Positions 5,376 through 6,908 of a stretch of 27,641 nt of DNA are shown in pieces. The stretch is from a virus. Location of the stretch: positions 1 to 27,641 of IMG/VR virus record IMGVR_UViG_3300031772_000225. One strand, written 5' to 3'. The notes below the pieces were generated by a model. That model saw nothing but the letters and a program-made list of their open reading frames with translations. It was not told the DNA's origin and did not search any database. The position numbers and the translations under genes were made by a program. Each line of letters begins with the position of its first letter. Within the stretch, counting starts at the first letter, position 1.

Positions 5376-5528
5376 ATGTCATTAAAAGAAGCTATCGAAT
5401 TGCTCTTCAGAAAAATCGCTTTTTATCTTTCTGAGAAATTCACCGGAAAAATAGTAATCACCTTCAATTGTAAAGATGGAGGAATTGGCAGATTATCAAT
5501 GACGGTTGAGGAAGATTTAAAAAAATAA
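5376..5528 (+). CDS. Small protein, unknown function (50 aa)
   Basis: ATG 5376 has a strong GAGGAGG ribosome site that is part of the end of the previous gene, and the frame runs 50 codons to TAA 5526-5528. The protein begins MSLKEAIELLFRKIAFYL (amphipathic helix), then GKIVITFNCKDGGIGRLSM, which looks like two beta strands with a Gly-rich turn, and ends EEDLKK. The helix plus two-strand layout is reminiscent of small DUF2292-type proteins, but I cannot confirm this. It is the last gene before the non-coding island at 5547-5687. The ribosome site, start spacing and coupling make it a real gene. Confidence 0.65.
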   Translation: MSLKEAIELLFRKIAFYLSEKFTGKIVITFNCKDGGIGRLSMTVEEDLKK

Positions 5529-5546
5529 AAAATATTAAAATAATTG

Positions 5547-5575
5547 TTGACTTTTATATTTTATTTTGTTATATT
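5547..5575 (+). promoter_or_regulatory. Sigma70-type promoter
   Basis: TTGACT (5547-5552) and TATATT (5570-5575) are separated by exactly 17 bases of almost pure A/T. Each hexamer has one mismatch to the housekeeping consensus (TTGACA, TATAAT). The predicted start is about 5581-5583. This is the only near-consensus promoter with both boxes and correct spacing that I found in an intergenic gap of the + strand genes. It lies 19 bases after the 50-residue gene and drives the short structured region 5581-5687. Confidence 0.75.
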
Positions 5576-5581
5576 AATAAC

Positions 5582-5687
5582 TAAGACTGTATGACGGTTT
5601 GCTGATTGATCCTCCGTAAGGACGGAGAACGACTTTTAGCCCGTTGGTAATGTTTTACTTATCCATTACCAGCGGGTTTTTTATTTT
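5582..5687 (+). ncRNA. Candidate structured RNA or attenuator leader
   Basis: Between the promoter and the terminator lie about 58 bases with no start-codon/ribosome-site pair. A perfect 6-bp hairpin, CTCCGT (5612-5617) with ACGGAG (5622-5627) and loop AAGG, sits in the middle. The 5' end CTAAG (5581-5585) can pair with TTTAG (5635-5639), closing a multi-part domain just before the terminator stem. The result would be an RNA of about 105 nt ending in the T-tract. It could be a free small RNA made inside the head operon or a leader that controls read-through into the protease-scaffold gene. No known RNA family was recognised; the structure was drawn by hand. Confidence 0.5.
5640..5687 (+). terminator. 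Intrinsic terminator inside the head operon
   Basis: CCCGTTGGTAATG (5640-5652) pairs with CATTACCAGCGGG (5664-5676): 13 bp with a single G-U pair and an 11-base loop, followed at once by TTTTTTATTTT (5677-5687). It is a textbook strong terminator lying only 12 bases before the start of the next structural gene. Its ribosome site (GAGG, 5691-5694) is outside the stem, so the hairpin should act on transcription rather than translation. Confidence 0.85.
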
Positions 5688-5699
5688 ACAGAGGAAAAA

Positions 5700-6908
5700 A
5701 TGGAAAAAAGACAAATAAGAAATGATCACGACGAATCCCGTCCGATGCGGTTTGACCGTGGAATAATAAAAGGCAAAACAAGCCGTACCGCGGAAGGATA
5801 TCTGCGTGCAGATGCCGTTGTTACGCGGTGCGGAGTTTTCAATTATAAAAATCCAAACGGTTCTGTCAGGCGGGAACTTCGTCATCCTGATGACGTGTTC
5901 AATCAAGTGAGCCTCGATAGTCTGAAAATGATTCCGGTAACAAATGAACATCCGGAAGTAAAGTTGTTGGATGCGAGCACAGCAAAGAAGTTCCAAGTTG
6001 GCTTTACTGGGGAGAATGTACGAAGAGACGAAAACGATGTTATGACCTCGATAACTGCAACCGATTCCGTAACAATAAATGACATTAATAACGGGAAAAA
6101 GGAACTTTCTTGCGGGTATACGCTTGATTTACTAAGAGAAGATGGTGTTTACGAAGGACAAAATTATAATTTTCGTCAAACAAATATTCTCTATAATCAT
6201 GTTGCGTTTACAAATAGGGGACGTGTGGGCACAGCACGATTAAATCTTGACGAGCAGGACGCTGTTGAATTAACGAATGATGAAATAAATGGTAATAGTA
6301 ATAGTGAAATTAATAACAAATCACAAAGGAGTAGTACAATGGGTAGTACAATGGTTAAATTCCGCATCGATAAAGACGAATTTGACGCTGATCCGCAGGT
6401 TGTTCTCTATGCGACCAAATTGGAGAATTCGTTGAAAGAAACAAAAACCAATTTGGACGGCATAACGTCCGAAAATTCCGCATTGAAAGCGGAACGCGAT
6501 ACCCTCAAAGCACGTCTCGATACCGCAGAAAAACGTGACGTTGCGAAGGAAATTTCCGATGCCGTTAAGTCACGGCGTTCTCTTGAAAATCAGGCTGGTG
6601 CGTTTCTCGGCAAGGATGTCAATCTGGATTCGATGGACGATTCCGCGATTCGTAAAGCAGTTGTGGAAAAGGCTTTCCCAACTCTGAAAGAAAAACTGGT
6701 CAATTGCGATGCTTCGTATTTGAATGTAAGCTATGACAATGCGACCGCTCTGTTGACAAACGAAAAAAGCGGTGGGGCTTCCGTTCAGCGTCAGTCAGTC
6801 ATGGGCAACGGAACAAGAAATGATTCCGAAACCGTGGACGTAGAAAAGGCAAGAGCGGCCTACGAAAAAAGAATGATCGAGGGTTGGAAAAATCCTGCTG
6901 CGAAGTAA
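5700..6908 (+). CDS. DUF2213 prohead protease-scaffold
   Basis: A 402-residue protein; GAGG at 5691-5694 sets ATG 5700. Residues about 15-185 match the DUF2213 pattern (MRFDRGIIKG, KMIPVTNEHPEV, KELSCGYTLDL, ILYNHVAFTNRGRVGTARL). His84 in NEHPE and Ser137 in ELSCGY are placed like the His/Ser pair of phage prohead proteases, so a maturation protease is likely (inference). Residues about 190-213 are a polar N/S-rich linker. Residues about 225-275 form a heptad coiled coil (LENSLKETKTNLDGI, SALKAERDTLKARLDTAEK), typical of scaffolds. The phage has no other protease or scaffold gene near the capsid gene, so this one appears to supply both. The scaffold half also has its own start (6339). Confidence 0.85.
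   Translation: MEKRQIRNDHDESRPMRFDRGIIKGKTSRTAEGYLRADAVVTRCGVFNYKNPNGSVRRELRHPDDVFNQVSLDSLKMIPVTNEHPEVKLLDASTAKKFQVGFTGENVRRDENDVMTSITATDSVTINDINNGKKELSCGYTLDLLREDGVYEGQNYNFRQTNILYNHVAFTNRGRVGTARLNLDEQDAVELTNDEINGNSNSEINNKSQRSSTMGSTMVKFRIDKDEFDADPQVVLYATKLENSLKETKTNLDGITSENSALKAERDTLKARLDTAEKRDVAKEISDAVKSRRSLENQAGAFLGKDVNLDSMDDSAIRKAVVEKAFPTLKEKLVNCDASYLNVSYDNATALLTNEKSGGASVQRQSVMGNGTRNDSETVDVEKARAAYEKRMIEGWKNPAAK
6325..6331 (+). promoter_or_regulatory. Internal ribosome binding site for the nested scaffold
   Basis: AAAGGAG at 6325-6331 lies 7 bases before an in-frame ATG at 6339 (codon 214 of the DUF2213 gene). It is as good as the sites before the true late genes of the window and falls exactly in the linker between the protease and coiled-coil domains. 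Confidence 0.7.
6331..6354 (+). repeat. 12-bp tandem duplication carrying a start codon
   Basis: GTAGTACAATGG occurs twice head to tail (6331-6342 and 6343-6354). Each copy holds an in-frame ATG, so there are two possible internal starts (6339 and 6351); the first has the better spacing from AAAGGAG. It adds four residues (SSTM/GSTM) to the full-length protein. Confidence 0.85.
6339..6908 (+). CDS. Nested in-frame scaffold protein
   Basis: Starting at ATG 6339, in frame with the DUF2213 gene, a separate 189-residue product would contain the coiled coil, a helical segment (KRDVAKEISDAVKSRRSLEN) and a basic C-terminus (YEKRMIEGWKNPAAK), but not the protease part. This mirrors the lambda C/Nu3 arrangement, in which the scaffold is translated from inside the protease gene so that many more scaffold than protease copies are made. 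The internal ribosome site and its location at the domain boundary are visible; expression of the short form is inference. Confidence 0.6.
   Translation: MGSTMVKFRIDKDEFDADPQVVLYATKLENSLKETKTNLDGITSENSALKAERDTLKARLDTAEKRDVAKEISDAVKSRRSLENQAGAFLGKDVNLDSMDDSAIRKAVVEKAFPTLKEKLVNCDASYLNVSYDNATALLTNEKSGGASVQRQSVMGNGTRNDSETVDVEKARAAYEKRMIEGWKNPAAK

Follow-up and report, generated by a model that had tools for sequence, protein, structure and literature searches.

A probable transcription attenuator linked to a small phage protein at the MuF/protease junction of a phage head operon

The stretch of DNA analyzed here (the window) is an IMG/VR virus record of 27.6 kb, which we read as the late region of a myophage. 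Its genes follow the order terminase, portal (Phage_portal_3), MuF-like protein, orf50, DUF2213 protease-scaffold, cement and major capsid protein, with tail and lysis genes following; before the terminase genes, the 5' edge falls inside a likely DNA methyltransferase gene (37-561; PHROG 67 match). Between orf50 (5376-5528, on the + strand like all features of the window described below) and the DUF2213 gene (5700-6908, with an SD-like AGAGG at 5690-5694) lie a promoter, a leader of ~60 nt and a strong terminator. A promoter-leader-terminator unit of this kind is present in a single copy in the window, in G003 and in G004.

The promoter is of the sigma-70 type (5547-5575). An earlier note on this DNA had pointed out a near-consensus TTGACT-17-TATATT, which is indeed present: the -35 element TTGACT (5547-5552) and the -10 element TATATT (5570-5575) match the consensus at 10 of 12 positions, with an additional extended -10 TG (5567-5568), and transcription is expected to start near 5582. 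One such match means little by itself, because sites with at least 9 of 12 matches are as frequent in the region (35) as expected from shuffles (34.2). The local promoter score in the window reached p=0.007 against shuffles, and across relatives the score at this place had a mean of 9.68 versus 8.36 (sd 0.21), an enrichment of ~6 sd. Note that the promoter attained p≤0.05 in 11 of 25 relatives and is weak or uncertain in about half.

The intrinsic terminator (5638-5687) is the sole strong intergenic terminator in the window. Previously described as a 13-bp stem with a T-tract, it holds up as a terminator, but its stem comprises 15 pairs, two of them G-U (5638-5652/5664-5678), with the U-tract at 5677-5687. 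The low folding energy of the whole 5582-5687 RNA (z=-5.1) is owed to this terminator. In the relatives, terminators mostly start at their 5' side with (A)GCCC.

The leader itself shows little conservation. A hairpin, CUCCGU-AAGG-ACGGAG (5612-5627), had been singled out as perfect; it is present (5612-5617/5622-5627), where the antiterminator helix described below encloses it, but it does not go beyond chance by itself (leader alone, z=-0.73) and is not found family-wide. Leaders of relatives, folded alone, are likewise not above chance (mean z -0.6), and their sequences are nearly unalignable with the exception of a GG-N2-3-GC motif. A motif search of the leaders returned GG-NN-GC-like words with a log-likelihood ratio of 24.3, compared with 13.7 (sd 1.8) in shuffles. 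With unit boundaries set by eye, GG-N2-GC was found in 12 of 25 leaders (2.1 expected, sd 1.4) and GG-N2-3-GC in 16 (3.5 expected). The idea that CCTCC (5611-5615 in the window) acts as an anti-Shine-Dalgarno sequence did not carry over to the family, as only 5 of 25 leaders contain it, three of them from close relatives. These five (the window, L173, L174, L177 and L099; form in L173/L174, CCTCCTTTCAAGG) exceed the expected 0.4 and belong mostly to one subclade. A leader peptide was considered and rejected, the open reading frames of the leaders being no longer (6.2 codons) than those of shuffles (7.5 codons). At gathering score, Rfam gave no match in the window, including no T-box model and no sRNA family. 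In a permissive search of the island, only terminator similarity was detected; the best weak match, RybB, covered the terminator alone, and again no T-box was found.

Relatives were collected as 160 IMG/VR loci from alignment-based scans with capsid and portal, and further loci came from scans with orf50. Scans with single proteins or patterns returned no close DNA or protein relatives, which were reached solely via alignments. Cultured phages are distant (~25-38% identity); in many of them this position holds a short gap or a small gene. Among 26 independent relatives with orf50, the gene lies directly behind MuF wherever the contig includes MuF, and an intrinsic terminator follows within ~200 nt of the orf50 stop in 25 (the exception being L178), usually preceded by a sigma-70-like promoter. 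A strong terminator occupies the MuF-DUF2213 interval in 17 of 19 phages with orf50, compared with 3 of 55 without it. Strong terminators are rare in two control intervals: they were found between DUF2213 and the major capsid gene in 0 of 14 phages with and 4 of 77 without orf50, and between portal and MuF in 0 of 73. Because other genes part the terminator from DUF2213 in several relatives, the unit, judged from gene arrangement, belongs with orf50 and the operon that follows, not with DUF2213.

The inserted genes are various. In L092, L100, L132, L171 and L201 they directly follow the putative attenuator and would come under its control; one recurring product, encoded between the terminator and DUF2213, starts with MPYPNEHSARL or similar. 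The orf50-less L037 (and, identically, L038) encodes at 1037-1195 a small protein with weak DUF2292 similarity (E 0.0074, below the curated cut-off), followed by a terminator near 1246-1270; this may be an analogue or a distant relative of the unit. Contig IMGVR_UViG_3300005782_000035 (L201 and L012) carries portal, MuF and orf50 together on one strand and, on the opposite one, the closest capsid gene (65% identity), which points to genome rearrangement or mosaicism.

In the window the product of orf50 is a 50-aa protein with the motif F-T-G-x-I ... G-G-I-G. It represents a family of ~50-80 residues located behind MuF (motif F-T-G-x-I ... G-G-I). AlphaFold2 models it as a helix plus beta-hairpin (pLDDT 85, pTM 0.55). 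No significant family match was obtained in Pfam, PHROGs or NCBIfam, and no significant fold match for model or sequence in PDB or BFVD; specifically, no CAT RNA-binding domain was found (Pfam, PDB). Searches of cultured phages and plasmids produced no credible match, and 299 genomes of one bacterial phylum produced one weak match only, with an internal stop.

We next consider the leader RNA together with the terminator. In the window, UGACGG (5592-5597) and GCUGA (5601-5605), separated by a UUU bulge (5598-5600), pair with UUAGC-CCGUUG (5636-5646; p_shuffle 0.025). The 5' strand (5592-5605) contains the GG-N2-3-GC motif, and 5638-5646 doubles as the 5' arm of the terminator. Since these bases are common to both structures, antiterminator and terminator are mutually exclusive. 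The 5' end of the leader had been suggested to pair with the bases before the terminator; the pairing stands in essence, except that its partner extends into the 5' arm of the terminator itself. From the GG-N2-3-GC words of the leaders and the GCCC starts of the terminators follows a family helix in which leader X-GG-(bulge)-GC-Y joins terminator arm Y'-GC-CC-X', with a bulge of 2-3 nt on the leader side. Examples are L100 (CCAGG-cc-GUCUCGU/ACGAGAC-CCUGG), L185 (GUAGG-au-GC/GC-CCUAC) and L201 (AAGCGG-aa-GC/GC-CCGUUU). In L190 the arm lacks GCCC and the leader changes to match (GG-uc-ACUC/GAGU-CC).

Contiguous pairing between leader and terminator arm was rejected, as it was no better than in composition-matched shuffles and a 3'-arm control scored equally. 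Of 12 helix geometries compared, just two stood out, those with a leader-side bulge of either 2 nt (z=-3.2) or 3 nt (z=-2.2); note that the bulged geometry was arrived at after the sequences had been inspected. Leaders matched with the arms of other phages paired more weakly (p=5e-5 for the 2-nt bulge), and in 20,000 leader-arm permutations with a 2- or 3-nt bulge none reached the observed value. A control with a 1-nt bulge also gave p=0.009 by permutation, so part of the leader-arm signal is composition. In a composition-controlled test with shuffled leaders, 0 of 400 sets attained the observed value. In the cleanest comparison, on 12 units, the register was anchored on the GG..GC motif and on the GCCC junction, blind to pairing, and only flanks outside both motifs were scored. 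These flanks paired better with their own partner than with those of other units (p=0.002-0.003 for the inner and p=0.03-0.05 for the outer flanks).

A covariation alignment was built of 11 rows, containing only units with both motifs, with an artificial linker between the strands and with the window and L174 cut from a 3- to a 2-nt bulge. In this alignment, 73% of cells were paired versus 60% in shuffles (0/500) and 25-47% in slid registers, and the covariation score was 0.351 versus 0.164 in shuffles (sd 0.037; 0/500) and 0.05-0.13 in slid registers. When the RNA was folded as it would exist before the terminator's 3' arm, the terminator 5' arm paired with the leader with a mean probability of 0.59, compared with 0.38 for shuffled leaders (sd 0.042); in the window this probability was 0.95. 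The covarying alternative helix sharing the terminator 5' arm fits well in about half of the 25 units and is poor or absent in at least five (L091, L093, L099, L173 and L177).

A different variant occurs downstream of 3171 in L179 and, in two tandem copies, downstream of 3204 in L184. Here a 19-nt loop, UAGCGCGAUAAYWUCAACC, is kept inside stems of differing sequence (ACUUAG.GG/CC.CUGAGU; UCUAAGAG/CUCUUAGA; UAACGG/CCGUUA), and the stems in L179 and the second L184 copy also use the terminator 5' arm. Judging from the sequences of only three copies, the variant appears to follow the same principle, although not with the same bulge. As a separate observation, a loop kept within covarying stems resembles a hairpin that binds a protein or ligand.

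At the level of sequence, the promoter, the terminator, their linkage to orf50 and the covarying antiterminator are conserved, and in the window and nearly all orf50 loci the intrinsic terminator lies within the leader of the downstream genes. A strong promoter followed by a strong terminator implies either that the leader itself is the product or that passage beyond it is regulated; the conserved pairing with the terminator arm favors regulated passage. The island is probably a transcription attenuator. This was one of two models in the earlier note, and it now has support from an antiterminator that is conserved, covaries and cannot form together with the terminator. The note had the attenuator setting the level of protease-scaffold and capsid. 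The attenuator is supported, but confining its control to DUF2213 would be too narrow, given the intervening genes in several relatives and the tie to orf50, a gene that the note left unmentioned. Those intervening genes do not argue against attenuation, as an attenuator would govern the entire downstream operon.

In the mechanism we propose, RNA polymerase would initiate near 5582, or reach the unit from the portal genes. The bulged antiterminator helix (5592-5605 paired with 5636-5646) would be the first structure of the nascent leader. Left unheld, it would be displaced by the longer terminator hairpin (5638-5678) and transcription would stop at ~5687, leaving a leader of ~105 nt. A factor holding the bulged helix would let transcription run on into the genes for protease-scaffold, cement and major capsid protein. 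The best candidate for such a factor would be the orf50 product, because its gene precedes the unit throughout the family. By this linkage orf50 may be the factor that acts on the leader, a tentative assignment in which RNA binding is presumed; the missing fold match and a net charge of only ~+2 by sequence lend an RNA-binding role no support. Full reading of the capsid genes would then come only after expression of terminase, portal, MuF and orf50. The opposite sign is also conceivable, with the factor favoring termination. That such a switch operates in vivo and governs capsid-gene transcription, as well as the sign of this control, is inferred. Probably the phages of this uncultured family employ orf50 and the switch to set the timing or strength of shell-gene reading.

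Late control in the manner of lambda Q is an unlikely alternative. Here promoter and early terminator would act as pR'-tR' do, the leader RNA would be irrelevant, and an antiterminator protein, perhaps orf50, would load at the DNA on paused RNA polymerase and render it terminator-resistant. The anatomy of promoter, short leader, terminator and genes matches, a candidate regulator gene adjoins upstream, and the leader sequence is scarcely conserved. However, this explanation predicts no RNA pairing covarying with the terminator arm, and such pairing is present; moreover, no Q-family antiterminator protein was found beside the promoter, orf50 being without a significant PHROG or Pfam match. Next in order, and improbable, is a free small RNA of ~70-140 nt, made late and acting in trans on other RNAs, with the terminator merely its 3' end. 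Most relatives have a promoter and terminator of their own, and the terminator resembles those of sRNAs such as RybB. Against this, leader-alone structure is at chance level, sequence divergence is near-complete except for one 6-7 nt motif, there is no Rfam family, and the conserved pairing uses the terminator arm and would vanish in the terminated RNA. The attenuator is favored over a free sRNA because the leader/terminator-arm helix is conserved and excludes the terminator; the free ~105-nt RNA of the earlier note is not needed, though a terminated leader of that size should arise. A cargo ('moron') slot, in which promoter and terminator are remnants that insulate a site of variable insertions in the MuF-DUF2213 interval, is very improbable: extra genes do occur in the interval in the five relatives named above and in phage S-CBS4, but they sit past the terminator and not between promoter and terminator, orf50-less phages rarely have a terminator even when the interval is long, and the pairing covaries.

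Returning to the attenuator, a bolder and more doubtful reading makes orf50 the first member of a new class of phage antiterminators, RNA-binding proteins of ~50 residues that would read, by TAR-like recognition, the bulge of 2-3 nt between GG/CC and GC/GC pairs, as part of an assembly-timing switch freeing capsid transcription once the portal-side genes are expressed. In tailed phages, the relative amounts of portal, scaffold and capsid and the order of their synthesis are usually explained by translation or a single late promoter. If true, an attenuator between portal side and shell side, acting with a single small protein, would give head assembly a direct and testable switch at the level of transcription, along with a new RNA motif and a new candidate family of minimal RNA-binding regulators that could serve as a genetic part.

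Several known systems invite comparison. In the T-box, a bulged antiterminator competes with a terminator, as here; the T-box has a 7-nt bulge with a conserved tRNA-binding sequence and a specifier stem, whereas the present unit has no 7-nt tRNA-binding bulge, no specifier stem and no Rfam match. Lambda pR'-6S RNA-tR' with Q consists of a late promoter, short leader, terminator and late genes, with the regulator gene upstream, and the present unit shares this layout down to the upstream candidate regulator gene. According to PMC7171158, loading of lambda Q takes place at a sigma-dependent pause and involves a specific DNA element. In contrast, here an RNA pairing covaries with the terminator, and the site lies inside the head operon at the MuF/protease junction. 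Where late genes are concerned, lambda Q offers a parallel in function (PMC7171158). ANTAR regulators (NasR, AmiR, EutV) use a protein-held antiterminator overlapping the terminator stem (PMC3369936). The overlap is the same here and holding by a protein is proposed, but neither a P1/P2 hairpin pair nor an ANTAR domain was seen. In the literature searched, no match was found for phage leader attenuators of this kind. BglG, SacY and LicT act through the RAT/CAT system, in which a protein stabilizes an RNA hairpin with asymmetric internal loops that overlaps and excludes the leader terminator (PMC3369936, PMC9981650). The present antiterminator likewise overlaps and excludes an intrinsic terminator in a leader, but it carries a single bulge of 2-3 nt and precedes phage head genes rather than sugar operons, and orf50 is modeled as a helix plus beta-hairpin instead of a four-stranded CAT domain and has no PRD. 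RAT/CAT-like attenuation is thus a known mechanism, and the combination of RNA and protein seen here sets this unit apart from each of the systems compared (BglG/SacY/LicT, ANTAR, lambda Q).
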